64,000 bases of DNA. It comes from an uncultured Flavobacteriaceae bacterium. GTDB lineage: Bacteria; Bacteroidota; Bacteroidia; Flavobacteriales; Flavobacteriaceae. The notes beneath the pieces are model-generated. The model searched no databases and was not told the origin of the DNA. It worked only from the letters and a program-made list of their open reading frames with translations. Below are positions 1-21,429 of this stretch, in pieces (position 1 is the first letter of the stretch; each line of letters begins with the position of its first letter). The stretch is from contig CALKFR010000008.1 in assembly GCA_938084555.1 (NCBI GenBank), positions 1-64,000 of the forward strand. Direction: 5' to 3'. The position numbers and the translations under genes were made by a program.

Positions 1-48
1 GATAGAATTTTTTCTTCTCTTACTGACATTTTTTTAGTAATCTTTAAT

Positions 49-1458
49 TTAGTTATTTTTTCTTTTTTTTAATTCAGCTCTAATTTCATTTGCTCTCTCT
101 TCTGTGATACTATAATTACGCATCACAAGCATTGCTAATATTGTTCCGACCATTGGGAAAAAACAAAAGAATGCATGAAGCCCATCAACGGCAGCTTGTT
201 GATCTGTTGTTGCCAGATCAGAGTTGAAACCAACTATAGTGATAATAACTCCACTTAGCGCTCCAGCAATTCCATACCCCACTTTCACCATCCACCAGTA
301 GATCGCTCCAAAAATACCTTCTCTACGCTTTCCGGTATTTATTTCATCGATATCAATAACATCTGCAGTCATAGACATCATAATAGTAAACAAGCTTCCT
401 ATACCAAAAGAAAAGAAAGGTAATGCAATAATATACATCCAAGGTTTTCCAGGAATAAATAAGAAATAAAGCATAATATATCCTATTAATGAAATGGATT
501 GAGATAACATAAAAGCTTTTTTCTTGCCAAGTTTTTTTGACATCCAAGCTACAGCCGGAATTACAATGAAAGTAGTTCCTATTGCACCTAAGCATCCAAA
601 CATAGAAACCCATATACCGCTGGCACCAGCATCTCCATTAAATAATTTATATACAATTACAAAAAAAGTAAGAGCGGCTACTGTATTAAAGGCATTAAAT
701 ATTAAAAAAGTTGCTCCACATAATTTTCGAAATTCTTTGATTTTAAATGCAGCTACAAAACTTTCGAATATTTTCATTAAGCTATTTCCAATATTTGCTG
801 AGTTTAAGGGTTCATAGTCTTCGTTAAGTGTAGAGTCGCTTTTTATAAAAATTGCGGGTACCATAGCACAAATTGCACAGGGTATCGCAACCCAGATTGC
901 CAATTCCTTTACAGCCACATCTGCAGATGGAAACCAACTTTCATCATACATAATGATCCAGAATAAGGGTGCAATTACCCATGCCCATTGCCCAATAAAT
1001 TGAGCTATTGCCATTATATTGGTACGTTCATGAAAATCATCACTCATTTCATATCCCATGGCTACATAAGGAACACTAAAAATAGTTAGACCTAAATAAA
1101 ATACTAAAGACCATAAGAAGAAATACCAAAAGTTATATTCTACTCCATCAGCCTTACTCAGCTGCCACATAAAAATATAGGCAAGACCCATAAGAATACC
1201 TCCAATAAGAACATATTGTCTTCGTCTTCCCCATTTAGATTTTGTATTGTCTGAAATAAAACCCATAATTGGATCAGTAATTGCATCAAATATTCTAGGG
1301 AAAAGAAATACTAAAGACCACATCCAGCCAGAAAAACCTAAATCTTCAACCAAAACAACCATGAAGATTCCTAAGATTGCTGGAAACATTTGGTTGGCTA
1401 GCATCCCAAAACCAAAGGCTATTTTTTGTCCCATAGGGACTTTACTTGTTCTAGACAT
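49..1458 (-). CDS. MFS / GPH-family sugar:cation symporter
   Basis: 469 aa, about 12 hydrophobic segments; RIFDAITDPIMGFISDNTKSKWGRRR motif typical of the GPH family. Confidence 0.88.
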   Translation of the reverse strand: MSRTSKVPMGQKIAFGFGMLANQMFPAILGIFMVVLVEDLGFSGWMWSLVFLFPRIFDAITDPIMGFISDNTKSKWGRRRQYVLIGGILMGLAYIFMWQLSKADGVEYNFWYFFLWSLVFYLGLTIFSVPYVAMGYEMSDDFHERTNIMAIAQFIGQWAWVIAPLFWIIMYDESWFPSADVAVKELAIWVAIPCAICAMVPAIFIKSDSTLNEDYEPLNSANIGNSLMKIFESFVAAFKIKEFRKLCGATFLIFNAFNTVAALTFFVIVYKLFNGDAGASGIWVSMFGCLGAIGTTFIVIPAVAWMSKKLGKKKAFMLSQSISLIGYIMLYFLFIPGKPWMYIIALPFFSFGIGSLFTIMMSMTADVIDIDEINTGKRREGIFGAIYWWMVKVGYGIAGALSGVIITIVGFNSDLATTDQQAAVDGLHAFFCFFPMVGTILAMLVMRNYSITEERANEIRAELKKRKNN

Positions 1459-1463
1459 AATTA

Positions 1464-2957
1464 TTAAATCGTATTAATTAATATTGTTTGTATTGCTTGT
1501 GGATTAATTGAAATAGTAGTTTCTTTTTTATCCAATGAAAGCGAAAAGCTTTTTTGAGTTGTACCTTCATTAAAAATTACTACAGCAATTGATCCGTCCA
1601 TATTTTTAGCTGCAGTAACCATTAGATCTTTATCAGACTTTTCAACTCCTATTACTTTAGCTTCTGGTCTAATATATTTGCTAAAATGTGCCATGGTATA
1701 ATAAATTGGGGTAAAGTAAACCTCGTCTTTTTCCGGATCTACAATTACAGGAGCCACACACCAGTTTTTAAACCAGTTTGGACCTCCTTGAGTATCTAAG
1801 ACCATATTCCAATCTACCCAACCATCAACCCAATTATTTAGACAACCAATAATATCTCTGGCATACCTGTTAACGGGGGCATATTTAGGATGAAGATGTT
1901 TATCTTTTTCAGGAGCCCAATCCCATCCCCAATCTGTAGCTTCTTTACTCCAATACCAATCATCATCTTGCCATTTTGGAATTTCTGAATCTACACAACC
2001 CTCAGTTTCTATCAAGTACTTGTTAGGAGCTTTATTGTGTGCATATTGTAATGCTTCAGGGAAAAAATCATAGGTACTTTCATACCAGTGAATTGCTGTA
2101 CCATCAAAATATTTTGAGGATGAATCATCTTTATACATTTCATCTACCCATTCTTGTAAACCAGCCCTATTTTGGTCATAACCTAAGATTATTTTATCTC
2201 CATAACCATCTTTTTCTAATTTTGGACCTAAATGAAATTGAACAAAATCAGTCATTTCCTTAGGAGTGTAATGCATACTTTCCCAATTGTTTCCATTTCC
2301 ATGGGGCTCGTTTTCTACTGTAAAACCCCATATATCAATACCTTCAGTTTTGTAAGCGGTTAAGTATTTGGAGAAAAATAACGCCCAAGTATCATAATAT
2401 TTAGGAAGCAATTTACCGCCAACCCAATTATTATTGTCTTTCATCCAAGGTGCAGCAGTCCATGGAGATGCTATGATCTCGAAGCCATCTTCAGAAATTT
2501 TCATGGCGTCTTTAATCATTGGTATAAGATCGTCTTTATCTTCTTGGATAGAAAAATGCTCAAGCTCTATATCGTTCTCAACAGGAGAATATGAATAGTT
2601 TGATAGTGAAAAATCACATGAGTTCATGTGAGTTCTTGTCAGAGAATAATTTGCACCTTCTTTTGAAAAATAAGCGTTCAATATTGATTCACGATTTTTA
2701 GAACTTAATTTATTTAACAAGTGGGCGGATGCCTCTGTAAAAGAACCTCCAAACCCTGTAATTTTTTGATATGTTATTTCCGGGTTAATACTGATTGAAG
2801 AAACTTCATTAGCCATAGTAAAGCTTGTTATTTGACTTAATTTATTTCCATTTTTTGAAGTTTCTATAACTTTTACAGATAATGGTTTTTCCGATGTGCA
2901 AGAGAGGACACTCATAAAGATTAATGTTAAAAAAAAGTATATCCTGATTAATTTCAT
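1464..2957 (-). CDS. Glycoside hydrolase family 30 lipoprotein (glucosylceramidase / beta-1,6-glucanase type)
   Basis: 497 aa; lipobox VLSC; ITGFGGSFTEASAHLL, acid/base FTVENEPHG, nucleophile LIETEGCV. Confidence 0.88.
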   Translation of the reverse strand: MKLIRIYFFLTLIFMSVLSCTSEKPLSVKVIETSKNGNKLSQITSFTMANEVSSISINPEITYQKITGFGGSFTEASAHLLNKLSSKNRESILNAYFSKEGANYSLTRTHMNSCDFSLSNYSYSPVENDIELEHFSIQEDKDDLIPMIKDAMKISEDGFEIIASPWTAAPWMKDNNNWVGGKLLPKYYDTWALFFSKYLTAYKTEGIDIWGFTVENEPHGNGNNWESMHYTPKEMTDFVQFHLGPKLEKDGYGDKIILGYDQNRAGLQEWVDEMYKDDSSSKYFDGTAIHWYESTYDFFPEALQYAHNKAPNKYLIETEGCVDSEIPKWQDDDWYWSKEATDWGWDWAPEKDKHLHPKYAPVNRYARDIIGCLNNWVDGWVDWNMVLDTQGGPNWFKNWCVAPVIVDPEKDEVYFTPIYYTMAHFSKYIRPEAKVIGVEKSDKDLMVTAAKNMDGSIAVVIFNEGTTQKSFSLSLDKKETTISINPQAIQTILINTI

Positions 2958-2971
2958 TTCACTGTGTGTTT

Positions 2972-4252
2972 TTATAAAGTGTTGATATTTTTTTTGAAAG
3001 GAGGGACATGCACTTCTAAAAGCAAACTGTCCTTGTTTCCGTTATATGTTTTTGTAATTGGTTTTTTGCCCCTACCCAAACCTTTGAAAGTTCCGTTATC
3101 AACTAAATTCCATAAAGCATATTTGGCTTTTCCATCAACTGTAAACAAACCAAAGTGATTTTCTGAACCCTCTGGATTTGAAGCATCTTTCCAAATCTCA
3201 TCAAAAGCTTCAAAATAGAAACATGAGACTCCGGCTTTTGAAGACCATTCTCTCATATGCCTGTAAAATAAAGCTTCTTTATATTCATCAGTTGCTTTAC
3301 TCCCTTTGTTACCATAAAGGCCGTTTGAAAATGTAGCCCAGCCTGTTTCCCCTATGTGTACAGGTTTTTTAATCCCTAAACTTTTTACATAATTAACTAC
3401 ACTATCATATTGCGAGACAGCATAGTCTTTTGATCGTAACATAATATTATTTACCTTTTCTATATTAGGTTTTTCATAGTTAGTATACCAAAATACAGGG
3501 TTGTAATGTGTGTCATGCATGGGGTAGGTATGCATTGAAATATAATCTACTTCTTTAATAAGTTTATTTAAATCTTCTGTGTGATATTCATCACTACCAC
3601 CACCCCAAGAAGCAAAATTATCAGAACTAGTAATCCAAAGGTTTTCAGGGAGTTTTCCTGTTTTTTTCAAGTTTTGTAGATGTGACACCCATTTAAGAAT
3701 TACAGAAGGTTGAACATAGTAACTTGTTGCCCATTTTACCATAGCCTCGTTCCCAACAGCAATAATTTTTACAATACTTGGATATTTATTTGCTAATGAA
3801 ACAGCTCTAGCAATTTCACCTTCATTTTGATCGCTCTCCAATAGGTGATTTACAGGTTGATTGGTCCAAGCATTTTTACAATCTATCCAAGCCCCCAACA
3901 TTACATACATTTCAAAAGACGGGTTTTCATTCTTTAGTTCCTGTATGGCTTTTAGAATTGTTTCAGCTTGAGCTAGTTGAACGTTATAGGTCCTTAGAAT
4001 TCTAATTTTCATAGCATGAAGAATATTCATATCCTCTTTAATCTCTGCTATTGTAGGCTGAATTCCTCTTGTAGATTTTCTATAACCACCATATGAGATT
4101 GCTAAATAATCTGGATTTCCTAATATTTCTTTTGCTGTCAATTGTATCTTCTGTTTAGGGTTTTGTTGTATTTCTTTCTTTATTTTATCATTACTACAAG
4201 ATGACACTATAGATAAAATAGTTATTGTGTATAGATAAAAATTTAACCTCAT
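2972..4252 (-). CDS. GH17-like beta-1,3-glucanase/glucosidase lipoprotein
   Basis: 426 aa; lipobox SSCS; SYGGYRKSTRGIQP, AVGNEAMV and HIGETGWATF catalytic motifs. Confidence 0.8.
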   Translation of the reverse strand: MRLNFYLYTITILSIVSSCSNDKIKKEIQQNPKQKIQLTAKEILGNPDYLAISYGGYRKSTRGIQPTIAEIKEDMNILHAMKIRILRTYNVQLAQAETILKAIQELKNENPSFEMYVMLGAWIDCKNAWTNQPVNHLLESDQNEGEIARAVSLANKYPSIVKIIAVGNEAMVKWATSYYVQPSVILKWVSHLQNLKKTGKLPENLWITSSDNFASWGGGSDEYHTEDLNKLIKEVDYISMHTYPMHDTHYNPVFWYTNYEKPNIEKVNNIMLRSKDYAVSQYDSVVNYVKSLGIKKPVHIGETGWATFSNGLYGNKGSKATDEYKEALFYRHMREWSSKAGVSCFYFEAFDEIWKDASNPEGSENHFGLFTVDGKAKYALWNLVDNGTFKGLGRGKKPITKTYNGNKDSLLLEVHVPPFKKNINTL

Positions 4253-4265
4253 CGACTTTATTTTC

Positions 4266-7200
4266 CTATTTCAAATATGTGTTATTTATGTACGCTTTGA
4301 TCTGAACAACATCTCCAGTTCTTTTGAATATTTTTTCACTTGTTTTTTGATCTACAACTAATGAATCAATTTTGGAAGAAGTCCCGTCTTTAAAAGTAAT
4401 TTCCAAACGATTTTTATCAGATATATGATAAATTATTGGTATTTGACAATATGTAAATGCAAGTGAATTCACAGGAATTATTATGTTTTGACTTCCATTA
4501 AATATGCTTAAATATTCAAAAGTTGTTTCTTTAGAAATAAACTCTTCTTTTCTGAGTAAACAAGGATTAAAATATAGTTTTCCACATTTCACAAAAACAC
4601 CTAATTCTCCGAATCTTGAGATTACATCTTCTTTTACCTGCCCAGTCATTCCTGGTTGTTGAGCACCTTTTCCACCTGGTGTGTGAGAATAAGGATCTGT
4701 TGGAAAAGCCCCATATAGCTCTGGAGATTTATGTACTCCTATACCTTCATTTATTTCATAAAAGTGTTCAAGCAATTGACCTATCATTACTTCATCCTCT
4801 TCATTTGATATGGCCTGCAAACAAGATTCCTGTACAGCTAACAATAATTTTGAAACCATATGCCAATATATAGAACCTAATCCCTCATAACCATAAAATG
4901 TACCGGATCTTCCTGTAAAAGCTTTGTGATTAAAAACCTCTTCAAAAGTCTGAAGAACTTTTGGGGTTTCAGAGGCTAATAAGCTACTATATTTTGTGTT
5001 AGAAAGCTTTTCTAAAGCTTCAGTAACATCGTTTGCGTTTTTAAAGTTTCCGTTAAAGTGGTACTCACCATTTACATCTCTTTCAATAATTTGAACAGCG
5101 TTATCTTTTAACATTTCTTGAAACAGCTTTGACGATAAAACCGCATCTTCCGAAATTGTATTTCTATCTAAGAATCCTTTTAATTCTTTATAAGGGTAGA
5201 GTAAATAACTGTATTGATCTTTTCTAAAGAGCTTACTTTCTTTTAGGGCATTTAATACATTTAAAGTTTCTTTACCATTTAGGTAGCCAGAACTTAAAAC
5301 AGCAACCTGACCCTCTAACATTTCACTTAAGTAGCTTATAGAAATAGTATTGTCGTTATTTACTGTCATTAAATTGTATGCGTGATACAAATTATCTGAA
5401 CGTTTATTAGCTTCAATAGAATGTTCTAAATATAATTTGCTTAGGCTTACAAACCTTTTTAATTTATCAAAAGATAGATTTGTTTTTCTACCAGAGAATG
5501 CATGGGTGTAAATTTGCGTTCGGTAATCATCTCCTGCTTGCCCTAAATCATCTAAAATTCTTTTTTTATCAGCATCATTTATTGAGGAAGCTAATAATTT
5601 AGTGTTTTTTTCAAAGGTACTCAGTACTTTATCGAAAAACTCCAAAATTTCGTTAGAAACTTCAACTTCAGTAGTTGAGGAGTTTTCTAATAATTCTTCA
5701 AAGAAATTAAAAAAACGGGTTAAGTAATATAACGTTACCATTGAAACACCATTTCCTACAAGAGCGTTATTGGCGTCATTCCATTCAGGTCTTTGAGTAT
5801 TCATCCAGATACCTCCCTCAGGAATAAAATTAGATAATTTTGCTAATGAAGTTGCAAGAATTTTTTCTATAAAATTTGCTTTTACTATAAAGCGATGTTC
5901 ATCTCGCAATAAAGCACCATCAGCACCCAAAGATGCTCTTTCTTCACGAATTTTAGTATCCAATTGTTGGTCAAAAATTATGGTGTCTTTCGGGTTTTTA
6001 AGCAGCTCTCTATAAGATTTTATTTTATAAGGAACATTCGCATAAACAAAAAGATTTTTAGTGAAGAAACTTTCTAATCTCCCCGGTTTATGATTATTTA
6101 TAAACTCTAAAAACTTTAACAAGTAGATGATTTGATGGTCACCCCAGTATCCAATATATGACCATGGGTCATCTGGCTCAATGGTTTCCCAGTCAAAACC
6201 TCCTTTTGTTACTCTGTAAGGGTTGTAGCCATCAAAAGTTGTAGCATTTAAAAATTTATGAATCATACTTTCAATAAATTCTGGGTATGAGTGCGCTAAG
6301 GCCTCCCAGTTTTGAAAGATGTCTCTCCAGTTACCCTCATAATCTAATATTTTGGAACCATCAATTTCATTTCTTGTATTTATTGAAAATCTATTCCAAG
6401 GTCTACTTGGGTCTCCATGACGCCTGCTAAATTTTAACGGCATATACTCTAAACAAAGTCGTCTGAAGTTTTTGTCTTCGTTATCATATGCGATCTTTTG
6501 AAGCTCTGAAAGTGAAAATTCTTCTGGAAGTTTTTCTATGATTTCCTCAGAAGTAAAAGCAACTTTTGTGTTTGCTTGTTCTAAATAGTTTTTAAAATCC
6601 CACTTTTCAATTTGATAATTATTATCAAAAATCCCTCCTCGCATAATATTAAAAAGTGTGTTTGCAAAATGGCGGGTATCTTTCAGATTGTCTGAGGTAA
6701 TTTGAATAGCATCTGAGGCTGAATTTAATTCAACTAAACGTTTTGTTCCAAGATTAATATCTTCATTTACTATCTCTTCCAAAGAGGATGCTTCTTTGAT
6801 TTGTTTTGATAATTTTGCGATGCTAGAATGATTTTGATTTACATTAGCAATAATCATCCATTCTTTAAATGATTCTTTTTCTAGTATGATTTCTGAATTT
6901 AAAAAGTAAGCTCCTTTCTCGGCTTTTATGTCTATTTCCTGATCTACTGATTTTCCTAATCTAAAATTGTTTAATTGTAAAGAAGAGAGAAGGTATTTTG
7001 GGCTGTTTAATCCGAGAGACCACACCACATTAGCTTTTAGGGCTTCACTAGCTTCTGCTTTGTCAACTAATATGGCACTCAATGCAAAAATCCCTAAACC
7101 TGTTGCTTCTTCTAGTTCATTTCGCTTGTATGCATCAACAAGGTTACTAGATTGATTTTGCTCATCACTACCAATACTAGCAGGCATAATATTTTGAATA

Positions 7201-7736
7201 CCATCTAGTAAAGATACTTTTACGGCACTATCGCTTGTATTGATCAGTTTAGATTTCTTAATAAATCCAAAAGTATTACTTGAACTCCATTGGTATCTGA
7301 AAATTAATTCTAAATCATGGTTAATTTCCTCGAAAATAATTTTGTTTCCATATTTATTTTTATAAAGATTTTGGGTTGTGGAATAACTGCCTAAAGACCT
7401 GACTGCTAATGGTTCCCACATAAAATCTTGGTTATCTTTAGATACTTTGAAAATAGATTTATTTCCTGTAATGTCTGCAGATTCTGTAATTTTATCGTCT
7501 GTATAGTAGGGGAACAAAGCATACTCAGAATTTTTTCTCCCAGCAGTTAGTCCTCCATTACTTGATATAAACATCCAATGATTAGAATCACTTACAATAC
7601 TCATAAAGAAAGGACGCATTACATCATTATTTGAAATCTGATAATATATTTCATCGTCTATGATTACAGATTTCAATTTAACATCCATATTATTTAATGA
7701 GGTTTCTTTTGTTACTATATTAGTTTCGTTACTCAT
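4266..7736 (-). CDS. Large cytosolic GH94/GH149-like protein, putative beta-1,3-glucan phosphorylase
   Basis: 1156 aa with no signal peptide; RPEWNDANNALVGNGVSM resembles the GH94-type (D/E)WND catalytic-acid motif; HTPGGKGAQQPGMTGQVKEDVISR near the C-terminus; located inside a beta-glucan PUL. Confidence 0.55.
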   Translation of the reverse strand: MSNETNIVTKETSLNNMDVKLKSVIIDDEIYYQISNNDVMRPFFMSIVSDSNHWMFISSNGGLTAGRKNSEYALFPYYTDDKITESADITGNKSIFKVSKDNQDFMWEPLAVRSLGSYSTTQNLYKNKYGNKIIFEEINHDLELIFRYQWSSSNTFGFIKKSKLINTSDSAVKVSLLDGIQNIMPASIGSDEQNQSSNLVDAYKRNELEEATGLGIFALSAILVDKAEASEALKANVVWSLGLNSPKYLLSSLQLNNFRLGKSVDQEIDIKAEKGAYFLNSEIILEKESFKEWMIIANVNQNHSSIAKLSKQIKEASSLEEIVNEDINLGTKRLVELNSASDAIQITSDNLKDTRHFANTLFNIMRGGIFDNNYQIEKWDFKNYLEQANTKVAFTSEEIIEKLPEEFSLSELQKIAYDNEDKNFRRLCLEYMPLKFSRRHGDPSRPWNRFSINTRNEIDGSKILDYEGNWRDIFQNWEALAHSYPEFIESMIHKFLNATTFDGYNPYRVTKGGFDWETIEPDDPWSYIGYWGDHQIIYLLKFLEFINNHKPGRLESFFTKNLFVYANVPYKIKSYRELLKNPKDTIIFDQQLDTKIREERASLGADGALLRDEHRFIVKANFIEKILATSLAKLSNFIPEGGIWMNTQRPEWNDANNALVGNGVSMVTLYYLTRFFNFFEELLENSSTTEVEVSNEILEFFDKVLSTFEKNTKLLASSINDADKKRILDDLGQAGDDYRTQIYTHAFSGRKTNLSFDKLKRFVSLSKLYLEHSIEANKRSDNLYHAYNLMTVNNDNTISISYLSEMLEGQVAVLSSGYLNGKETLNVLNALKESKLFRKDQYSYLLYPYKELKGFLDRNTISEDAVLSSKLFQEMLKDNAVQIIERDVNGEYHFNGNFKNANDVTEALEKLSNTKYSSLLASETPKVLQTFEEVFNHKAFTGRSGTFYGYEGLGSIYWHMVSKLLLAVQESCLQAISNEEDEVMIGQLLEHFYEINEGIGVHKSPELYGAFPTDPYSHTPGGKGAQQPGMTGQVKEDVISRFGELGVFVKCGKLYFNPCLLRKEEFISKETTFEYLSIFNGSQNIIIPVNSLAFTYCQIPIIYHISDKNRLEITFKDGTSSKIDSLVVDQKTSEKIFKRTGDVVQIKAYINNTYLK

Positions 7737-7773: not shown

Positions 7774-9603
7774 TTAGTTTGATTGTAAAATTTGATCAAT
7801 ATAAAAATCTCCAGAAGTAGTTCCTGGACCATCAATAAAAATGACCAATCTATTGTATTTTTTTAATGAAGAAAATGAAAAACTTAATTCTTCCCATTCA
7901 TTTCCAGAATGAAATGCTGAGCGCTCAATTGAACTATTTTCATCACTAACTTTCTCTAATTTAAGCATTATTTCTACTGGCTTTATAGAGTGTAATGCTA
8001 ATTTTATAGTATTCCCATTTTCCAAGTCAATAGGAGATTTAAGATCTAAATAACTTCCTTCCCAATTATTTCCTGAGTTTGTAAATACACCTAATTTAGT
8101 TGTTAAGGTATTATTATTAGTCAGCGGATTCTTATCGCTAAGTTTAAAGGATGCTCCATTAAAAGAGGTAAATTTTAATACTATTGGGTTATTATTAAAA
8201 GCTATGTTAAACACTGGATTTGTAGCCTTCTCCCAAAGTGCATAAACGACTGAATCTTTACTTTTATTTGCGCGATCAAGATTTTTCTTATTGAGAGCTC
8301 CTTTAATATCAGCCTTAATTATGTCGATGTTATTAAAATATTCTTTCAGTAAATCGAGATTGCTATTTTTATTGAAAGGATTAAATTTATGAACTTCCTT
8401 CAATAGATAATAGGCAGTTCTGGGGTATAAGTTATAGAGGCCTTTCTCGTTAGTTGGCCCTTTAGCACAAATCCCAAACCATTCTTCATTCATATTATTT
8501 TTCCCCTCTTCAAGATCTACTGAGTATCCTCCATTAGCCCAAGTTGCAACAGTATCATGTTTGCTAACATTTTTTCTATGATCAAAATCATACTTCCACC
8601 AGCCATCACTAAATTGAAAAGTAAAACCACCAATAGTGTTTTCATACTTTCCCATACCTGCGGAATTTTCATAAATTTCTCTCCAGTTCTCTAGGAGATA
8701 ATTTGCCTGAGTTCTCTGATCTTCTTTAGAATTAAGTGAGTTATAGGCATCTGCACCAAATTCAGTAAATAAAAGAGGTTTATTCAAAGTTTCTTTAACG
8801 GATTTAAATAGATTGGTAAAGGAAGCACCTCTATATGAGTTGACTCCCAAAATATCAATATCCTTACATTCTTGTGCGATTATGTCAATAAATAGATTGT
8901 CTCCATTACAAATAGCTACAGGATGATTAGAATCTAGTTTTTTAATTATTTTTGAGGCCTCATTCATTAAACGATACATAGGCCTTCCATATTTTTCTCC
9001 CACAGCTATTTTGTTAGCCTCTTCTTTAGGGAAATCTTCAGTCTCTGCTCCAGACCAAAAAAGTCCATAATTATTTTCGTTTCCAAGCAAATACAATAAA
9101 AGGCCAGGGGTGTTTTTGTAATCACTAACCATTGTTTCAATTTCTGACAATAAAATCTCTTGCATCTTAGAATTTGAGTAATCTGTGATTGGATTCCATT
9201 TTCCGTCTACTGTCATACCATACCTTCCAAAAGAATGATTAATCATTGTATAAATACCATAATTTTCATAGATATATTGAATCCATTTTGCAGGGATATC
9301 AGAATAATGGCGAATAGTGTTGATATTCATGTCTTTTAATAGAGACATTTCATGGTCTAGTCCTAATTTTATGATTTCATCTGAACTCTTCCAAAAATTA
9401 GCACTAACAGCATCCTTGCCAATTGGAATCATATCCCAATTCATTCCATTAATTATAAATTTTTCACCATTAACAATCAACACATTTCCATGCTCATTTG
9501 ATTTTACCAAAACTTCATGAGTTTGACAAAAAGATAATGACAAACTAATGAAAAGCAATCCAAATAATTGAATTATTTTTATGTTTGAAAAATCAGGCAT
9601 CAC
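7774..9603 (-). CDS. Clan GH-A glycoside hydrolase (GH2/GH5-like TIM barrel) with C-terminal carbohydrate-binding-like domain
   Basis: 609 aa; signal peptide; NGEKFIINGMNWDM, LLGNENNYG (acid/base), LLFTEFGADAYN (nucleophile); beta-sandwich-like C-terminus ending GDFYIDQI. Confidence 0.68.
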   Translation of the reverse strand: MMPDFSNIKIIQLFGLLFISLSLSFCQTHEVLVKSNEHGNVLIVNGEKFIINGMNWDMIPIGKDAVSANFWKSSDEIIKLGLDHEMSLLKDMNINTIRHYSDIPAKWIQYIYENYGIYTMINHSFGRYGMTVDGKWNPITDYSNSKMQEILLSEIETMVSDYKNTPGLLLYLLGNENNYGLFWSGAETEDFPKEEANKIAVGEKYGRPMYRLMNEASKIIKKLDSNHPVAICNGDNLFIDIIAQECKDIDILGVNSYRGASFTNLFKSVKETLNKPLLFTEFGADAYNSLNSKEDQRTQANYLLENWREIYENSAGMGKYENTIGGFTFQFSDGWWKYDFDHRKNVSKHDTVATWANGGYSVDLEEGKNNMNEEWFGICAKGPTNEKGLYNLYPRTAYYLLKEVHKFNPFNKNSNLDLLKEYFNNIDIIKADIKGALNKKNLDRANKSKDSVVYALWEKATNPVFNIAFNNNPIVLKFTSFNGASFKLSDKNPLTNNNTLTTKLGVFTNSGNNWEGSYLDLKSPIDLENGNTIKLALHSIKPVEIMLKLEKVSDENSSIERSAFHSGNEWEELSFSFSSLKKYNRLVIFIDGPGTTSGDFYIDQILQSN

Positions 9604-10047: not shown

Positions 10048-11751
10048 TTACTGGAATACTTTAACATAATCAATTTCCATAGTATCCTCTGTAAATGCAG
10101 GATCTATATCACCGCCAAGAGTTCCACCCATGGCAACATTAAGTATCAAATAAAAATCTGAATCAAACGGTAAATCTGCAGAATTTGTTAATTCATAATA
10201 CTGAATATCGTCTAGATATATTTTTATAGCACTTTCAGACCATTCAACAGTGTATAAATGAAATTCAGTAGAAGCATTTTCAACAGTGGCACTTTCACCA
10301 TAACTAGCATTATTTCCACCAGCAGTGTTAAACCAGTGAGTTGTTCCTAATACTCTAGTCTTATCGTCACCACGTTGCTCCATAATGTCTATTTCACCGG
10401 AGGATGGCCATCCTACTGTTGGATGGTTTGACCCCAACATCCATATCGCAGGCCATGTTCCTTGAGATGCAGGTAGTTTGGCTCTGACTTCAACTCTACC
10501 ATATGTAAAATCATAAAGTCCTTGAGTTTTTATTCTAGCAGAAGTAAAATTATTTCCTTCTTTTTTTGCTGTAATCTTTAATGACCCATTTTCAACAATC
10601 ACATTTTCTGAACTATCAGTATAACTTTGAGCTTCCTGATTTCCCCATCCGGCATTACCAAAAATATCTGTAGTCCCTAGATCATAAGTCCAATTGCTTG
10701 AGTTTGGCGCACCATCTGTATTAAAATCATCCTCCCATACAAGATTTGTATATTGATACCCTGGGTCTACATCCCCTTCAACAGGTTTTGTTGATGTAAA
10801 TCTTTGATACCATGCAAAACCATTGCCAGCTTGTATAATTCTAACAAATAATTCATCGTCTGAAATAGATATGATATCATAAGTACTTGCTCCTACATAC
10901 CACCCTAAAAACCCTCCATCGCTAATTTCAAAACTTGTTTGTCTGTAAGGAACTTCATTATAACTACCTTCTAAAGCTGCTTTTGAACTGGATGGGAAAA
11001 AGGAAACATTCTTCTCACCAAACATTGTAGTTGCTACTGTTTCGTCATGACATGTATCTCCAGCAACTCCTAATTCTCCAGCATAGGCTCCTGGAATAAA
11101 AGCGGGTCCAATAGTTTGTTCGAAACTAATCCCATTAGCTGTTCTGGTAAATACAAATTCATTATCATACATACAGTATTTTTCATCATCCCAAGGTTGT
11201 ATTAAATTCCACCAAGCTTCGTAAGCAAACTCTCCATTTCCATAATCATCTTCAACGGGTCCTAGTCCTACATGTAGAGGTTTATTAGCTTGCCAATACC
11301 ATTTTTTACTGCTTCCAATATCGTTAACATCTGATGATCCTGTTAAAAAGTTTTCTGCTTCCTCATCTTTGAAAGAATTAAACACGGTTACTTCTAAATT
11401 AGTGCTAGTACCTAAACCTCCAGTTCCTGTTGCATTTACGACCACATTGTAAGTATATACTCCAACATTTGCAGAATAACGGTGCTCTATGATCCCTGTT
11501 GGACTAACAGCCGTTCTGCCATCACCAAAATTGAATTGATAGTTTATTTCGTTATCTGAAGTTGCGGTAAAAACAACAACAGCACTTCCATCACCATTAG
11601 GGTTTTCATTGTCTTGACCAACAATTTCAACACTAACACTTAAGTTTGTTGGAGCTACCAGCGCTCCTACTTCATACGATTCTTCCTGACAACTCGTAAA
11701 CCCTACTAGAAGTAGAAAGAATACTGAGATGTTGTGTGTTATTTTTTTCAT
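10048..11751 (-). CDS. GH16 endo-beta-1,3-glucanase (laminarinase) lipoprotein with PKD domain
   Basis: 567 aa; lipobox FTSC; PKD-like INYQFNFGDGRTAV; GH16 catalytic GEIDIMEQRG, WPAIWMLG, YTVEWSESAIKIYLDD. Confidence 0.93.
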   Translation of the reverse strand: MKKITHNISVFFLLLVGFTSCQEESYEVGALVAPTNLSVSVEIVGQDNENPNGDGSAVVVFTATSDNEINYQFNFGDGRTAVSPTGIIEHRYSANVGVYTYNVVVNATGTGGLGTSTNLEVTVFNSFKDEEAENFLTGSSDVNDIGSSKKWYWQANKPLHVGLGPVEDDYGNGEFAYEAWWNLIQPWDDEKYCMYDNEFVFTRTANGISFEQTIGPAFIPGAYAGELGVAGDTCHDETVATTMFGEKNVSFFPSSSKAALEGSYNEVPYRQTSFEISDGGFLGWYVGASTYDIISISDDELFVRIIQAGNGFAWYQRFTSTKPVEGDVDPGYQYTNLVWEDDFNTDGAPNSSNWTYDLGTTDIFGNAGWGNQEAQSYTDSSENVIVENGSLKITAKKEGNNFTSARIKTQGLYDFTYGRVEVRAKLPASQGTWPAIWMLGSNHPTVGWPSSGEIDIMEQRGDDKTRVLGTTHWFNTAGGNNASYGESATVENASTEFHLYTVEWSESAIKIYLDDIQYYELTNSADLPFDSDFYLILNVAMGGTLGGDIDPAFTEDTMEIDYVKVFQ

Positions 11752-11782: not shown

Positions 11783-13774
11783 TTAATTTAAGGATAACGA
11801 TACATCATCTATATTGACCAGTCCAATTTCTCCACCGATATCAAACAAAACTCTAGCATCAGGTGCTTCAAATCCTACATCTGTATAAGTAAAAGTATAG
11901 GTAGTTCTTGTAGTCGTAATGTCTAAAGGTGCACCTGTATTTGTCCAAGGCGGTCCACTGAGTCCAATACCGGCAACGATGGTTCTATCTCTATCTGACC
12001 AAGCATCAAAGGTTAATGTATAGGTATTCCCTCCAATGATTTCAACTTTTTGACTAAGATTCACATCATAAACATTTCCTGCTGCTTCGACATTGACAGA
12101 ATAATAAGTGTTTCCACTATCTGTAACTACAGGGGCAGGAGAATTATCGTCAACTCCAACAATCCAAGCATCACTTCCGTTCTCAAAATTACCATTTGTG
12201 AGAAGATTCCCAGATCCAACAATTAAAGATACATTATCAATATTCACAAGCCCAACTTCTCCACCAATATCAAACAAAACTCTTGCATCACCAGCACCAA
12301 AACCAATAGACGAGTAGGTGTAAGAAAAAGTAGTTCTGGTTGTTGTAATATCTAAGGGAGCACCGGTATTGGTCCAAGGTGGTCCACTAAGGCCAATTCC
12401 TGCAACTATTGTTCTATCTCTATCTGACCAGGCATCGAATGTTAGGGTATAAGTACTTCCTTCAGCTAATGCAACTTTTTGACTCACATTTACATCATAA
12501 ACATTACCCGCAGACTCTACATTAACAGAGTAATAGGTATTTCCTCCATTTGTTACAACAGGGGCTGGGGAATTATCGTCTACTCCAACAATCCATGAGT
12601 CACTTCCGTTTTCAAAATCTCCATTTGTTAAAAGCCCATCATCAAATCCAGGACCAGATGATGCTCTATAAAAATATAAATTATCAATAAAAACAGTTCC
12701 TACAGGATCTGCAGAAATTACAGTCTGATTTATATCAGAAAATGGAACATCTGTAAAATCAGATAAAGGAAGATCAAAACTGATCCATTCTCCCTCTTGA
12801 TCTATGGCATTTGATACTTCAAACTCAATATTATCTGTACCACCATTATATCCTGTACCATTAAAATCTACAAATTTAATTTTAAAAGTACTTACGTTTG
12901 TACTCCAAACATCAAAATGCACCATTTCCATAGTAGAGGCATCTATTGGTGAAGCTTCAGTTATGATACCCGCATAAGCTAGATCTCTATAAACTAATGT
13001 CTGATTTCCTTCAATAGCTACTTCTTCTTGAGCGGCAACTACAGACCAGCTAGTAGTGTATGAATCTACAGTAGTTTGTATGTATTGTTCACTATACATA
13101 GAAATGACATCTGCTGCATCTCTTCCCGGAGGTGAGGGTGCTTTAGCAATTGGAGATAAAATTTCTGTTACTTCAAACTCTTCTGTATACTCGGTAGTTT
13201 CAATTGCACCACCTTTAGCTACAACTTTCACGGCGTAAACTCCGGGTGTTTCGTAGTCATATGATATTTCATCACCTATATTTCCAGTAACTACAGGTTG
13301 ATCAATTCCATCTTCTCCAGAGTGAAATTCAAAAGTGGTTGCAAATTCTGCTGTAGCTGTAATATTAACTTTTCTTGAGACAGCCACATCATTTTCAATA
13401 GTTACTTCTAAGTTTCTTGGAGCTTGAAATGACATCACCAGCTCTTGGGTTATCTCAGCTGATTCACCAATTATATTTGTAGCAACAACACCCACTGTAT
13501 AAGTTCCTTCTGGATAAACATGTTGAACACTTTCTCCGTTAGCAAAGCTTACAGATTCTGATCCATCTCCAAAATCAATACTAAAAGAAGTGGCTCCTTC
13601 AGCAAATGGAGTTATAGTTGCTAAACCTGTATTGTCTTGGGTTACAATAAAGTTTACCCCAATATTAGATGGTAATGCAACATCATTTAGAAACTCTAGG
13701 TTTGTTTCATCTTTACAAGAACTTATAATTATAAGTATCAGTAAAGCTTTGTAGAATGTTTTTATTTTTTTCAT
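11783..13774 (-). CDS. PUL surface glycan-binding lipoprotein with PKD domains and two tandem CBM4/9-like modules
   Basis: 663 aa; lipobox ISSC; SFSIDFGDGSES PKD motif; two C-terminal copies starting LLTNG(D/N)FENGS(D)xWIVGVDDNSPAPVVT. Confidence 0.82.
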   Translation of the reverse strand: MKKIKTFYKALLILIIISSCKDETNLEFLNDVALPSNIGVNFIVTQDNTGLATITPFAEGATSFSIDFGDGSESVSFANGESVQHVYPEGTYTVGVVATNIIGESAEITQELVMSFQAPRNLEVTIENDVAVSRKVNITATAEFATTFEFHSGEDGIDQPVVTGNIGDEISYDYETPGVYAVKVVAKGGAIETTEYTEEFEVTEILSPIAKAPSPPGRDAADVISMYSEQYIQTTVDSYTTSWSVVAAQEEVAIEGNQTLVYRDLAYAGIITEASPIDASTMEMVHFDVWSTNVSTFKIKFVDFNGTGYNGGTDNIEFEVSNAIDQEGEWISFDLPLSDFTDVPFSDINQTVISADPVGTVFIDNLYFYRASSGPGFDDGLLTNGDFENGSDSWIVGVDDNSPAPVVTNGGNTYYSVNVESAGNVYDVNVSQKVALAEGSTYTLTFDAWSDRDRTIVAGIGLSGPPWTNTGAPLDITTTRTTFSYTYSSIGFGAGDARVLFDIGGEVGLVNIDNVSLIVGSGNLLTNGNFENGSDAWIVGVDDNSPAPVVTDSGNTYYSVNVEAAGNVYDVNLSQKVEIIGGNTYTLTFDAWSDRDRTIVAGIGLSGPPWTNTGAPLDITTTRTTYTFTYTDVGFEAPDARVLFDIGGEIGLVNIDDVSLSLN
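11786..12634 (-). repeat. Intragenic tandem duplication of a CBM4/9-like module (copies about 12206-12634 and 11786-12205, 429-nt period)
   Basis: LLTNG codons of the two copies end at 12634 and 12205; protein block TFDAWSDRDRTIVAGIGLSGPPWTNTGAPLDITTTRTT is identical in both. Confidence 0.93.
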
Positions 13775-13787
13775 AATAGTTTTTATT

Positions 13788-15257
13788 TTAATATCCTTGA
13801 TTTTGATCCCAACGATTACCAGCTAACTCTATTTCAATTCTTGGAATTGGGAAAACTTCGTTTTTATTGGGTGTAAATCCAGGAATGGAAGCTGTATTCC
13901 CAGTTCTAACTTGATCAAAAAAGTGATGGCCTTCTCCAGCCAATTCTAATTTTCGCTCATTTAAAATATTTTCTAGGGTAGCAGTTATTCTGTTGTTAGA
14001 GTCGCCAAAGGCTCTATCTCTAACTTGGTCTAGTAAATCTTGAGGATTATCTTTTTGAACAGACGCTTGTAAATTAGCTTCAGCAGCCATCAACAATACA
14101 TCAGAATAACGTATTGCTCTATAATTGTTACTTCTATTTATATTTTGATCTGGAAGCACTATGTCATCTGCATAAGGAATGTATTTTTTATTAAAATATC
14201 CTGTATGTTCTGATCCTAGATTGTAAGTAACATCAGGTCTGGAAGCTACAAAAGCATCAATATCAAAAATCGTTGCCTCTTTTCTTGTGTCCGCTGCATC
14301 ATATAGGTCTACTAGCTCCTGTATCGGAACGTTGAAACTAAAACCAGATGCGTAAGGAGTAAAATCACCATCTCTAAATCTAGGCCCCATAAATCCTACT
14401 GCAAAATTTCCTTCTAAACATTGGAAACAACCAAAACCTGCTCCTTCTTGACTTCCTGAGTATTGAACTTCAAAAATAGATTCTACATTGTTTTCATTGT
14501 TGTTTAAGAAAATAGAGGCATAATTAGAAACCAATTGATATTGTCCAGATGATATTACTTTATTAAAAGCATCTGCTGCTTCGTCATATTTATTTTGATA
14601 TAAATAAATTTTCCCTAAAAGCGCCCATGCAGCTCCTTTAGTTGCTCTTCCTTTTTGTACTTGTTGCCATGGTAAGTTTTCTATGGTTGATAATAAGTCA
14701 CTTTCTAATTGTGAATAGATTTCACTTTTTGGTGTTCTATCAATTGATTGCGTTTCAGCAATGCTAATTCTTCCATCAGTGTACATTGGTACATCTCCAA
14801 AGAATTTTATCAATTCAAAATAGTAGTATGATCTTAAGAATAAGTTTTCGGCTAAAACTCCTTGTTTTTCATCGAAATCTATTTTATCTTGAAATTCAAT
14901 GATATAATTAGCTCTACTAATTCCCGCGTACATCCACTGCCAAACACTTCTTAAGGCGCCATTATCAGGAGTGTGAATCATATCATCAATTTGTTGCCAA
15001 TCTAGAACATCTGCTTGATTTTCACCTCCACATAACGAATTGTCGGAGGCAATCTCACCAAGGATGTTGTTAAGGGCAGTAGTAGATAATAAATCATATA
15101 CCCCTATTAGTGCATCCTGAAAGTCCTGAGGATTGTTAAAGAAGTTTTCAGAATTTTGCTGTCCTTCAGGAGAAATGTCTAAATAATCATCGCACGAAGT
15201 AAAAGAAACAAATGTTAACGTGATTGCTATTAAATATATTATTTTATTTTTCATCAT
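13788..15257 (-). CDS. SusD/RagB family nutrient-binding lipoprotein
   Basis: 489 aa; lipobox FTSC; DDYLDISPEGQ N-terminus, RYSDVLLMAAEANL and C-terminal NERKLELAGEGHHFFDQVR. Confidence 0.95.
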   Translation of the reverse strand: MMKNKIIYLIAITLTFVSFTSCDDYLDISPEGQQNSENFFNNPQDFQDALIGVYDLLSTTALNNILGEIASDNSLCGGENQADVLDWQQIDDMIHTPDNGALRSVWQWMYAGISRANYIIEFQDKIDFDEKQGVLAENLFLRSYYYFELIKFFGDVPMYTDGRISIAETQSIDRTPKSEIYSQLESDLLSTIENLPWQQVQKGRATKGAAWALLGKIYLYQNKYDEAADAFNKVISSGQYQLVSNYASIFLNNNENNVESIFEVQYSGSQEGAGFGCFQCLEGNFAVGFMGPRFRDGDFTPYASGFSFNVPIQELVDLYDAADTRKEATIFDIDAFVASRPDVTYNLGSEHTGYFNKKYIPYADDIVLPDQNINRSNNYRAIRYSDVLLMAAEANLQASVQKDNPQDLLDQVRDRAFGDSNNRITATLENILNERKLELAGEGHHFFDQVRTGNTASIPGFTPNKNEVFPIPRIEIELAGNRWDQNQGY

Positions 15258-15265
15258 ATTTTGTT

Positions 15266-18200
15266 TTAAAATGATACATTAATTCCTAATGTGTATGTTC
15301 TAGTTTGAGGATATTGACCTAAATCAACTCCTGCAGCAGAAGGATTTGCGTTAGATACATCTGGGTTATAACCACTATATTTTGTAAATGTATATAGGTT
15401 ATTAGCAGCGACATATATTCGAACTTTATCCATTTTTATTTTCTCTAATGTAGAGCTTGGAATTGAATAACCAAGCTGTACGTTTTGAATTCTTAAAAAA
15501 GAAGCATCTTCAACGAAGAAGTCTGAGAAAAGATAATTATTAGAGGCATTTGTTGATGCTCTTGGAGTAGTGTTTGAAGTTCCTTCACCTGTCCATCGAT
15601 CTAAATATAATCTAGATTTATTACTGTAAGTTAGAAAGCGCTCATAACTTCGAACAGCGTCGTTACCAATTGAAGCGTAAAGAGAAGTTGCAAAATCTAA
15701 TCCTTTGTAATCTAAATTTAAATTAAAACCTAAGGTCATCTCAGGTATTGGATTTCCAATAACTGCAAGATCATCTTCACTTCCAAATTCAACTATACCA
15801 TCTCCATCTCCGTCTACAAATCTTAGATCTCCTGGCTGAGCACCCGGTTGTAATGCATGTGCATCAATTTCTGCTTGATTTTGAAAGATCCCGTCGGTTT
15901 GTAATCCATAAAAAGTACCAATTGGAAGTCCAGTTTGAAATCTTGAAGTGGTCTGCCCTAAACCAAATTGACCACTTGGAATAAATCCTGCAGCATTATT
16001 CACTTCTAAAGTTTTATTTTTTACAGTGGTGATATTCAATCCAGTAGCTAGTCTAAAATCTTCACTCAATTGTTTTTTATAGTTAATGCTTAGGTCTAAT
16101 CCTCTATTTTCGATAGTACCTGCATTTACAATTGGAGCAGAACTTCCTCCTGCGGTTGATCCTAGTAGTCCAGAAACTTCAGGTACAAGTAGTAAGTTTC
16201 GGGTTGTTTTTACATAATAATCCATGGTAACATCAAATTGATTATTGAAAAAACTAGCATCAAAACCAAAATTAACTTGTTCGTTGGTTTCCCATTGTAA
16301 GTCTGGGTTTGCTAACTGACCTAATGCATTACCATAGGAAAGTACGTTACCAAAAGGATAGGTTGCTTCAGCATTTGCTCCTTGGAGTCTTCCAATCCAT
16401 CCATAACTTCCTATTTTGTCATTTCCTGTAATACCCCAACTTCCTCTAACTTTTAAATTATTGATTTGATCAACATCAAAAAAGTCTTCTTTGGTAAGTA
16501 TCCAACCTCCTGAAACAGATGGGAAATAACCAGTTCTATTATTTGGTCCAAATCTTGTGGATGCATCTCTTCTTACCATTGCAGAGAATAAATATTTTCC
16601 ATCATAATCGTATTGAACTCTTCCAAAAAGAGAAAACCATCGATCTTCGTTTACACCAGTGGATGCGCTTCTGTTTCTTTGTACAGTTTTGTTATCAACT
16701 ACAATATTTCCATCAGGATCTAAAGAAGTTAAAATATATTCATCGTAAATATCTTGGGTATTGAACAAGTAAGCATTGCTCCAGCTATCCTCTCCGACAA
16801 GAGAACCATAACCATAGACTCCATAAAATTGTTCACTTCGGATAGAAGTTCCTAGAAGAAAACTTAGATTGTGGTTGTCAAAAGATTTTTTATAATCGAT
16901 AAAAGTTTCCCATGTATAATCTGTATAATTTTGGGTATCTTCTCCAACACCACTAAACAAATCGATAATACCATTTCCATTGGTATCTCTTATAAATTGA
17001 TTATTAGCATCTACATTAACGCTATTATTTACTTTGTTAGGACCATAATATGCAAGAGGATTATAATTTCTATTTGCAACATCTGCATAATTGAAATTAT
17101 ATCTTGAAGTTATTTTAAGATCTTCAATAACTTCATAGGATAACTCTACTTTACCTGTAAACCTGTTCACTTTAGTTTCATTGTAGGTATTGTTAATTAA
17201 AGCAAAAGGGTTGATGATTTCAATTCCTTGTTCACTGCCTATGTAAGAGTAACCTCTTGAAGGACCGCTACCATCAGTACCATCAAAAATGGGTGTTAAA
17301 GGTGAAGCATTTAATCCATAATATAAAACAGACCCTCTACCACCTTCTGGAATTGTTTTTCTGTTAATGTTAGTATATAACAAAAAGGTACTTAATTTTA
17401 ATTTATCTGTTAAATCAATACCTAAATTGTTTCTTAATGTAATTCTATTAAAGTTAGATTTTTCTGGCGAAATAATTCCTTCTTGTTGAAAAATACTCGC
17501 ACTTGTGCTATGGGTAATATTTTCAGAGCCACCACTTGCGCTAAAGGTATAGTTTGTGATTGGTGCTTGAGTAAATAACTTCTTTTGCCAATCTGTACCT
17601 GTTCCAAAACCATTAATATTTGGATAAGGAATATTGTTTCCATCAGCTATTTCTGTTTCGTTAACATATACAGCATATTCACTTGCATTCATTAAATCTA
17701 ATTGATTTGAAGCTTCCTGAATAGAAGAAAAAGAGTTAAATGTAAATTTTGTGGGTCTATTTTTCTTCCCTGATTTTGTTGTAATTAGCACAACACCGTT
17801 GGCAGCCTGAACCCCATAAATAGCAGAACTGGCATCTTTAATGATGTCCATTTTTTCAATATCATTTGGATCAATAACACTTAGGTCAGATCCAATATTT
17901 ACTCCATCTACAATTACAAGAGGTGAATTGTTACCATTTGTTGTTATTCCACGAATCCTAATATTTAATGAGGCTCCTGGAGATCCAGAATTTGCGGTAA
18001 CTTGAACTCCTGCGGCGTTACCTGTTAAAGCTTCTTCAATTCTGGCAGGGTTTTTTTCTGCTATCTTGTCTGCATTTAAAGAAGAAAATGCTCCGGATAC
18101 TAATTCTTTTCTTTGGCTTCCATAACCTACAACAACAATTTCATCTAGAGTTTCAGAACTTTCTTCAAGTGCGACATTTATAACTTCTTGATTTACTGTT

Positions 18201-18457
18201 ATCTCTTTTGTTTGATATCCAAGGTAACTAAAGACTAAAATTGAACCTTTGGGCACTCCAGAGATTTTATAATTACCATCAAAATCTGTAACATCTCCCT
18301 TGGAAGAATTTTTTACAATCACATTTACACCAAGAAGTGTTTCTCCTGTTACAGCATCTGTAACAAGACCTTTTACATTTAAAGTTTGAGCAAAAAGTGT
18401 GCTTGACATAAAAATGAACGAAACTAAAATGATCAGTTTTTTCATAAAATTTTTCAT
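15266..18457 (-). CDS. SusC/RagA family TonB-linked outer membrane protein
   Basis: 1063 aa; carboxypeptidase-like N-terminal domain, TonB box DEIVVVGYGSQ, plug NNSPLVIVDGVNIGSDLSVIDPNDIEKMDIIKDASSAIYG. Confidence 0.96.
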   Translation of the reverse strand: MKNFMKKLIILVSFIFMSSTLFAQTLNVKGLVTDAVTGETLLGVNVIVKNSSKGDVTDFDGNYKISGVPKGSILVFSYLGYQTKEITVNQEVINVALEESSETLDEIVVVGYGSQRKELVSGAFSSLNADKIAEKNPARIEEALTGNAAGVQVTANSGSPGASLNIRIRGITTNGNNSPLVIVDGVNIGSDLSVIDPNDIEKMDIIKDASSAIYGVQAANGVVLITTKSGKKNRPTKFTFNSFSSIQEASNQLDLMNASEYAVYVNETEIADGNNIPYPNINGFGTGTDWQKKLFTQAPITNYTFSASGGSENITHSTSASIFQQEGIISPEKSNFNRITLRNNLGIDLTDKLKLSTFLLYTNINRKTIPEGGRGSVLYYGLNASPLTPIFDGTDGSGPSRGYSYIGSEQGIEIINPFALINNTYNETKVNRFTGKVELSYEVIEDLKITSRYNFNYADVANRNYNPLAYYGPNKVNNSVNVDANNQFIRDTNGNGIIDLFSGVGEDTQNYTDYTWETFIDYKKSFDNHNLSFLLGTSIRSEQFYGVYGYGSLVGEDSWSNAYLFNTQDIYDEYILTSLDPDGNIVVDNKTVQRNRSASTGVNEDRWFSLFGRVQYDYDGKYLFSAMVRRDASTRFGPNNRTGYFPSVSGGWILTKEDFFDVDQINNLKVRGSWGITGNDKIGSYGWIGRLQGANAEATYPFGNVLSYGNALGQLANPDLQWETNEQVNFGFDASFFNNQFDVTMDYYVKTTRNLLLVPEVSGLLGSTAGGSSAPIVNAGTIENRGLDLSINYKKQLSEDFRLATGLNITTVKNKTLEVNNAAGFIPSGQFGLGQTTSRFQTGLPIGTFYGLQTDGIFQNQAEIDAHALQPGAQPGDLRFVDGDGDGIVEFGSEDDLAVIGNPIPEMTLGFNLNLDYKGLDFATSLYASIGNDAVRSYERFLTYSNKSRLYLDRWTGEGTSNTTPRASTNASNNYLFSDFFVEDASFLRIQNVQLGYSIPSSTLEKIKMDKVRIYVAANNLYTFTKYSGYNPDVSNANPSAAGVDLGQYPQTRTYTLGINVSF

Positions 18458-18642: not shown

Positions 18643-21429
18643 TTATATTTCTAATATATAGCTGCTTAAACTAGCTTCATGCGGTAGATTCATCTTTTTA
18701 CGTAGACGATATCTTTTAACCTCTACACTTCTTATTGATATGTTTAGTAGAGGTGCAATTTCTTTTGAAGATAAATTTAATCTGAGGTAAGTACATAGTC
18801 TTAAGTCATTTGATGTAAGGTTTGAATGTTCTGACTTTAATTTTTTCATAAAACCTTTGTCAGTGTTTTTGAAAGCTTCTTCAAATAGCTTCCAATCATC
18901 AGAGGTGTTTAAATTATCATTGATGAGCTCTATAACTTCTTTAATTTTATTATTATTAGTATTACTTAACTCCTTTTTTATGGTTCCTAGCAATTCATTC
19001 CTTTTGATTAAATTCATGGTAGAAAGTCCAAGCTCTCTATTTTTTGAATCAATATCTTTCTGCAAATCTAAATTTTTAAAATGCATTAATTGCTGCTCAT
19101 TTTCTAGTTGCTTTATTTCTAATTCTTTTTCTTTTCGTTTTAATAGTTTTGCTTGTTGATTCTTAAAGTAATTTCTATGCAAAACATTAATAATCATAAG
19201 TAAAAGAATAACTGAAATTATATATATAATCAAAGATGAAGTTTTTAAATACCAAGGTTTTGCAATATTGAAACCGTATTTAATTGTATTGGTAGTTGTT
19301 TGCGCACCAACCTTGCCTTTAATCTCAAAAGTATAGTTTCCGTGAGGTAAGTTTTCAAAGTATATTTCAGATTTTGTGGACCAATTACTCCATTCATTGT
19401 TAAGCCCCAATAATCTATATTGAAATAATGAAGGTAAATATTTATTGAAGTCTGAAATGCTGTAGAAAAATTTAATGTCATTTTCCTCATTTTTTAAAAC
19501 ACCATTTTCCGAGAGACTTAAATATTTTTGACCTCCTTGTAAAGAATTTGTTGTAATCTCATCTAACTTAATAATTTGCGTATTCTTAGTTCTGGTTTTT
19601 ATATCTGCAACTATATATCCACTTTTGGTCCCAATTATATATTTGTCATCCTCTATATAAAGAATGTTTTCGTATCCGTCTTTTGTCTCTCTATCACTAT
19701 TAGGAATTGGAATTGAAAACAATTCATATTTAGGGCTTAGTTTTTCTTTTTGGACATAAGATATATTATCATTTGTAAATGCAAATAATTTGTTGTTTTC
19801 ACTAATTAATTTTCCTGAGATATATCCTTTATCCCCAAAAATAGTACTTAATATAGTATCTTTTTTAAAATTTGAAGAGAGTGAATCAAAATAAAACACC
19901 CCTTCATTAGAGCCATAAAGAACTTTATTATTGTATTTATTTAGACTTGATTTTATGCTTTTTCTTAGGGTAGTTTTAGAAGATGATAAAACCTCTTTAA
20001 ATTCATTATCAATCTTTAATTGAAAGACACCCTTTTGTTCATGACTTACTAATAGTTCATTAGGACTAATAAACTCAAGATATCTAGACGAGATATCAAA
20101 ACCCTTTATTTTATTTCTTAAGTTCCATTTTTTACTTTTATTCTGAAGTACGTATAGCCCTTTATAATTTCCTAATAGTAATAAATCTTCTTTACCTGAG
20201 ATTTCTTTGATCAGCCAAGTTCCAAAAGTATTCGATATTCTATCTGCTTTACCTTTTGAAATTATAAATATTCCTTTGTCATGTCCACAAAAAAGAGTGT
20301 TTTTAAATTTTTGTAAAGACCAAACCTGACCTTCTGTTCCTGGGACAAAACGAAATCTATCTTTTTTATCTTTATAAAAAAGACCTTGATTAGTCCCTAA
20401 ATATAAAACTCCATCATCTAAAAAAGTTGTATAAACAGATCCTAAAACCCCCAGATCATCTTTGTATACTCTGAAAGGAACATTAAAATTAATATTACTA
20501 ATTCCATTATCTAAACCAAGCCAAACATTTTCATCAATATCTTCGAATAGTGAAAGCACTGTGTTATTTCCTAGGCCTCTACTTTGATTAATCGTAAATG
20601 AAACTTTTTTTTCTTTATTTATATATAAAATTCCATTAGACACAGATCCAAGAATAAAATCTCCATTTTTTAATCGCAAGCTATTGTAAATATTGTAATT
20701 GCGTAGTTTCGTATTAAGAAGAGGATCCCATTCCCTTATACTTTTGTTGTTTTCTTTAATGAAAAATCCGTGTTCTTTTGTTTGAAATAAGAGTTGAGCA
20801 TTATTTTCAAAAATATTAATTACAATTCTGTTTTTTAAAATTTCATCACTGCTAATTAATATTTCCTCACCATTTTTAAACTTAAAGATTCCTTGGTTTA
20901 TCTTTTGATAATATATTTCGTTATTTACTTTATAAATTTTAGTAATTGAAGTTTCAGCCTCAATAATGGCAATAGTTTTAAATTTAGAATCATATATATA
21001 TATTCTGTCTAAAGATTGAAAAAGAATCCATCGGTCAAGTTCTAAAATATTCCAAAACTCTTCATCTTCAGCTAGAGATATATTTTTATTTGAAGTAATA
21101 GAGCTGTATTCTAAAGTTCCAAAATTATTCTTCTCCCAAAATCCAAAATCCATATAACTACCGGTGTAAATTTTCTCACCAATAACTTTAACGGACCTAA
21201 CAATAGATGAATTTTTTGATTTATAAAGCTTCCACCTAGCACCATTATACATGAGAAGTCCTTTGTTATTTGCAAAATAAATAGATTTATCCTTCCCTTG
21301 AGAGATACCCCAGTTTTGATCTTCAGCGCCATAATCTTTTGGTTTAAAAACTTCAATAGGAGGAAGTTCTTGTGAAAAAACACTGAATTGGACAATTATA
21401 AAAAAATAAATAAAATTTCTAATCTTCAT
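18643..21429 (-). CDS. PUL regulator: beta-propeller + Y_Y_Y + transmembrane helix + coiled coil + LuxR-type HTH
   Basis: 928 aa; repeated propeller-like blades, Y_Y_Y-like segment ending GFNIAKPWYLKTS, TM helix, C-terminal LSSKEIAPLLNISIRSVEVKRYRLRKKMNL HTH; no histidine kinase motifs. Confidence 0.85.
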   Translation of the reverse strand: MKIRNFIYFFIIVQFSVFSQELPPIEVFKPKDYGAEDQNWGISQGKDKSIYFANNKGLLMYNGARWKLYKSKNSSIVRSVKVIGEKIYTGSYMDFGFWEKNNFGTLEYSSITSNKNISLAEDEEFWNILELDRWILFQSLDRIYIYDSKFKTIAIIEAETSITKIYKVNNEIYYQKINQGIFKFKNGEEILISSDEILKNRIVINIFENNAQLLFQTKEHGFFIKENNKSIREWDPLLNTKLRNYNIYNSLRLKNGDFILGSVSNGILYINKEKKVSFTINQSRGLGNNTVLSLFEDIDENVWLGLDNGISNINFNVPFRVYKDDLGVLGSVYTTFLDDGVLYLGTNQGLFYKDKKDRFRFVPGTEGQVWSLQKFKNTLFCGHDKGIFIISKGKADRISNTFGTWLIKEISGKEDLLLLGNYKGLYVLQNKSKKWNLRNKIKGFDISSRYLEFISPNELLVSHEQKGVFQLKIDNEFKEVLSSSKTTLRKSIKSSLNKYNNKVLYGSNEGVFYFDSLSSNFKKDTILSTIFGDKGYISGKLISENNKLFAFTNDNISYVQKEKLSPKYELFSIPIPNSDRETKDGYENILYIEDDKYIIGTKSGYIVADIKTRTKNTQIIKLDEITTNSLQGGQKYLSLSENGVLKNEENDIKFFYSISDFNKYLPSLFQYRLLGLNNEWSNWSTKSEIYFENLPHGNYTFEIKGKVGAQTTTNTIKYGFNIAKPWYLKTSSLIIYIISVILLLMIINVLHRNYFKNQQAKLLKRKEKELEIKQLENEQQLMHFKNLDLQKDIDSKNRELGLSTMNLIKRNELLGTIKKELSNTNNNKIKEVIELINDNLNTSDDWKLFEEAFKNTDKGFMKKLKSEHSNLTSNDLRLCTYLRLNLSSKEIAPLLNISIRSVEVKRYRLRKKMNLPHEASLSSYILEI

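Follow-up and report, generated by a model that had tools for sequence, protein, structure and literature searches.

A predicted GH149 β-1,3-glucan phosphorylase within a variant 1 laminarin PUL of a marine flavobacterium

The bacterial GH149 enzyme used for the comparison made here is Pro_7066, a biochemically characterized β-1,3-oligoglucan phosphorylase with a crystal structure (PMC5827456, PMC6771811). Its catalytic domain contains two inserted domains, Dom1 and Dom2, that are absent from GH94 (PMC6771811). β-1,3-glucan phosphorylases also occur in GH161, where a degree of polymerization (DP) of 3 or more is required (PMC6484121). According to the founding GH149 paper, most Bacteroidetes GH149 genes are found in PULs or CAZyme clusters together with GH16/GH17 and GH3/GH30_1 (PMC5827456). 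Variant 1 laminarin PULs have been published for Formosa (PMC6246565) and Muricauda (PMC13188888), and also for Polaribacter and further bloom bacteria, where one version reads 'GH149-GH0-GH17-GH16_3-GH30_1' (PMC10108472).

We analyzed a 64,000-nucleotide stretch of DNA from an uncultured Flavobacteriaceae bacterium, referred to as the window, whose first 21 kb encode a comparable set of proteins:

1–29, minus strand: first codons (MSVREEKIL...) of an apparent second GH17-like gene of GH17B type, truncated where the contig ends (position and sequence inspection)
49–1458, minus strand: MFS (GPH-type) sugar transporter, 469 aa, without GH17 fusion (PF13347, 2.1e-65)
1464–2957, minus strand: GH30 (GH30_1-like) β-glucosidase (PF02055, 8.6e-77)
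2972–4252, minus strand: GH17 endo-laminarinase, FbGH17A type (6FCG, the FbGH17A structure, 655.6 bits over 417 aa)
4266–7736, minus strand: predicted GH149 β-1,3-glucan phosphorylase, complete, 1156 aa (NF058639 equivalog, 1789.9 bits; 6HQ6, 1674.6 bits)
7774–9603, minus strand: clan GH-A TIM-barrel lipoprotein (GH0/GH2-like), 609 aa (PF02836, 1.6e-10; fold nearest GH158/GH157)
10048–11751, minus strand: PKD-GH16 endo-β-1,3-glucanase, laminarinase-like (PF00722, 5.1e-24; 4BQ1, 2.1e-59)
11783–13774, minus strand: PKD and CBM4_9 protein (PF02018, 3.1e-19)
13788–15257, minus strand: SusD-like protein (PF14322, PF07980)
15266–18457, minus strand: SusC-like TonB-dependent receptor (TIGR04056, 837 bits, cut-off 368)
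18643–21429, minus strand: Y_Y_Y/LuxR-type sensor-regulator (PF07495, 2.1e-08; PF00196, 1.2e-4)

Its content of SusC/D, GH16, GH149, GH17, GH30 and MFS genes makes this locus a laminarin PUL of variant 1, as published for marine Flavobacteriia, with the reservation that the published set names GH16_3 and GH30_1 and the assignment here is to the families GH16 and GH30. It shares SusC/D, GH16, the GH0/GH2-like protein, GH149, GH17, GH30_1 and MFS with the loci of Formosa, Polaribacter, Cd. Prosiliicoccus and Muricauda (PMC6246565, PMC10108472, PMC13188888). Many variant 1 PULs are reported to have an MFS-GH17 fusion (PMC6246565), whereas the MFS gene of the window ends in a stop codon and the second GH17 is apparently separate. 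The GH17 nature of the truncated gene at 1–29 is suggested by our reading of its sequence and by the position of GH17B in published loci; the same MSVREEKIL start is also found in a complete 297-aa GH17-looking ORF (L031:7849-8742) directly after the MFS gene of a relative whose GH149 is 91% identical. The GH30 is a probable β-1,6-debranching enzyme, a function taken from FbGH30 (PMC6246565), and the PKD and CBM4_9 protein is a probable surface glycan-binding protein. The latter carries two near-identical CBM4_9-type repeats at its C-terminus (residues ~380–515 and ~523–660), a recent-looking tandem duplication.

The phosphorylase gene is an intact minus-strand ORF with an ATG start and without internal stop, and its matches to both the family model and a solved structure (each with E = 0) place it far beyond chance. 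Its sole NCBIfam match is NF058639, '1,3-beta-D-glucan phosphorylase, GH149 family', an equivalog model with a curated cut-off of 1150 bits that covers residues 17–1150 of 1156. A search of all PDB chains ranked Pro_7066 first (6HQ6/6HQ8; residues 7–1150, E = 0), and 739 of 1142 aligned residues are identical between the two proteins (64.7%, counted on pairwise alignments). From sequence comparison and PUL context we are highly confident that positions 4266–7736 encode a cytosolic GH149 β-1,3-glucan phosphorylase of a marine flavobacterium, and nothing that came up in the analysis speaks against this reading. The cytosolic location, already proposed in an earlier note on this DNA, fits the N-terminus MSNETNIVTKETSLNNMDV, in which no hydrophobic signal sequence was seen by inspection.

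Domain limits published for Pro_7066 (PMC6771811) were mapped onto the window protein by alignment, together with the published active-site residues:

6831–7718, minus strand: N-terminal β-sandwich (Pro_7066 residues 1–303), 66% identity to Pro_7066
4602–6716, minus strand: (α/α)6 catalytic domain (Pro_7066 342–1045), 68% identity
6450–6632, minus strand: GH149-specific insert Dom1, residues 369–429, 51% identity
4923–5180, minus strand: GH149-specific insert Dom2, residues 853–938, 49% identity
4287–4601, minus strand: C-terminal jelly-roll domain (Pro_7066 1046–1156), 47% identity
5775–5783, minus strand: WND motif W652 N653 D654, aligned to Pro_7066; D654 is the predicted catalytic acid (Pro_7066 D653)
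6321–6326, minus strand: R471 D472, sugar-1-phosphate recognition (Pro_7066 R470 D471)
4860–4862, minus strand: H959, predicted phosphate-recognition His (Pro_7066 H959)
4884–4886, minus strand: E951, donor-site Glu (Pro_7066 E951)

The window protein keeps every one of the seven published active-site residues (Pro_7066 R470, D471, W651, N652, D653, E951 and H959 correspond to R471, D472, W652, N653, D654, E951 and H959), and all are invariant in the 81 sequences formed by the window protein and 80 relatives. The clan GH-Q set of RD, WND, donor-site Glu and phosphate His is therefore complete. The window protein and Pro_7066 belong to the same length class and have every domain in common, including Dom1 and Dom2. 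The differences amount to ordinary divergence, with the lowest identity in the linker (45%) and in Dom1, Dom2 and the C-terminal domain (47–51%).

The family was recognizable from sequence alone, and most of what the earlier note had read from the letters holds. Its coordinates for the 1156-aa ORF are exact, the strand being minus. It correctly read the WND motif in RPEWNDANNAL, a stretch that it placed at about 5761–5820 and that spans exactly 5760–5792 on the minus strand, and the segment it put at about 4616–4690 is PGGKGAQQPGMTGQ at exactly 4638–4679. SusC and SusD, together with same-strand genes for GH16, GH17 and GH30, confirm that the gene belongs to a PUL. On the other hand, the N-terminal half, said to resemble nothing nameable, contains the GH149 β-sandwich.

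The note had left the choice between GH149 and a divergent sister family, and had called the protein a candidate novel phosphorylase. Only the first half of that choice stands. A sister family acting on another linkage or substrate, such as β-1,4- or β-1,2-glucans, could draw on the absence of any Pfam family at E ≤ 0.01, which would leave a Pfam-only annotation at unknown; because NCBIfam and the PDB identify the protein at once, this silence reflects a gap in Pfam rather than novelty. The full-length match at equivalog level (1789.9 bits against the cut-off of 1150), the identity to a verified β-1,3-glucan phosphorylase and the laminarin-specific neighbor genes all speak against such a family. 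Since the sequence data already contradict it, we give this reading virtually no probability, and with it the claim of novelty is rejected. The searches of NCBIfam and the PDB gave GH149 as best match, and not the non-phosphorylase family that the note had named as counting against its reading. Assignment to GH161 or GH94 is just as close to negligible: the WND/RD/His pattern of clan GH-Q is common to these families and to the GH161 enzymes 9QQK and PapP, but the match to the GH161 structure 9QQK is partial and weak (33.3 bits, E 1e-07, compared with 1674.6 bits for GH149), no GH94 chain in the PDB was found at E ≤ 1, and Pfam gave neither family. A frameshift or fusion as the cause of the large size was ruled out as well, as all 80 extracted relatives span 1120–1200 aa, which makes 1156 aa a normal size for the family.

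Relatives of the GH149 protein are encoded in at least 590 confirmed stretches of public genomes, with one genome taken per species. Among the matches listed, the closest is 91% identical and the next, from Flavobacteriales bacterium ALC-1 and Wocania, are 79% identical; the remainder of the 80 kept from these at least 590 are mostly from Flavobacteriaceae and Saprospiraceae. A search of 39 related genomes gave a match above the family cut-off in 16, and a single copy is present in the genome of the window itself, a 1.69 Mb MAG that is 63% complete. In the 80 related loci the neighbors recur, GH17A in 75, MFS in 70 and both GH16 and GH30 in 60.

By analogy with Pro_7066 and the work on Formosa, we infer the activity and chain-length range of the GH149 enzyme and the cellular site of each step in the pathway. 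Laminarin, an algal sugar, would be cleaved extracellularly by GH16, and the products would be taken up by SusC/D. GH30 and GH17 would then debranch and shorten the fragments, and the MFS transporter would import the resulting oligosaccharides. In the cytosol, GH149 would use inorganic phosphate to remove glucose from β-1,3-gluco-oligosaccharides of DP 2 and up. In an inverting single displacement, D654 as general acid would donate a proton to the glycosidic oxygen as phosphate, bound near H959, attacks C1; R471 and E951 would line the donor subsite. The reaction would yield α-glucose-1-phosphate and a shorter chain, saving ATP. The degradative direction is our inference for the cell. The reaction of Pro_7066 and EgP1 is reversible in vitro (PMC5827456), so GH149 might instead work mainly in the synthesis of β-1,3-glucan from Glc-1-P; its gene, however, is part of a degradative PUL that also encodes SusCD, hydrolases and an importer, and we consider a synthetic role extremely improbable. 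An atypical preference of the GH149 enzyme for chain length or branching, for instance acceptance of β-1,6-branched laminari-oligosaccharides, might arise through Dom2, which is less conserved and lies close to the active-site gate; this we regard as very unlikely.

The protein encoded next to GH149 (7774–9603) matches no family at curated equivalog level and shows a weak match to PF02836 (GH2_C), the GH2 TIM-barrel. One of its homologs scores just above the cut-off for GH72 glucanosyltransferases (PF03198, 27.2 bits compared with 25.9); no report of a bacterial GH72-type enzyme in laminarin PULs came up in a literature search. A fold model based on 24 sequences (mean pLDDT 70.1) is mostly confident for the barrel but not for the C-terminus from residue 449. 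In the PDB the model is nearest to GH158 and GH157, with E values of about 1e-14 to 1e-12, target-normalized TM scores of 0.47–0.57 and 13–18% identity. E176 (in GNEN) and E281 (in TEFG) are invariant in the 24 homologs. Homologs are found in 56 of the 80 GH149 loci, with forms of about 430 aa and about 1050 aa. Residues 478–607 (7774–8172, minus strand) resemble 8QX6, a PKD domain-containing protein (E 2.8e-12), on which a literature search found nothing; the segment is a candidate laminarin-binding module. It is attached to the barrel where many homologs have an extension of ~600 aa. Published laminarin PULs probably list this protein as 'GH0' or 'GH2', which would make it a known but unclassified component.

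Overall, the GH149 enzyme and its locus are of known kinds with nothing new in either. The locus adds one more genome to the well-described laminarin pathway of marine Flavobacteriia.
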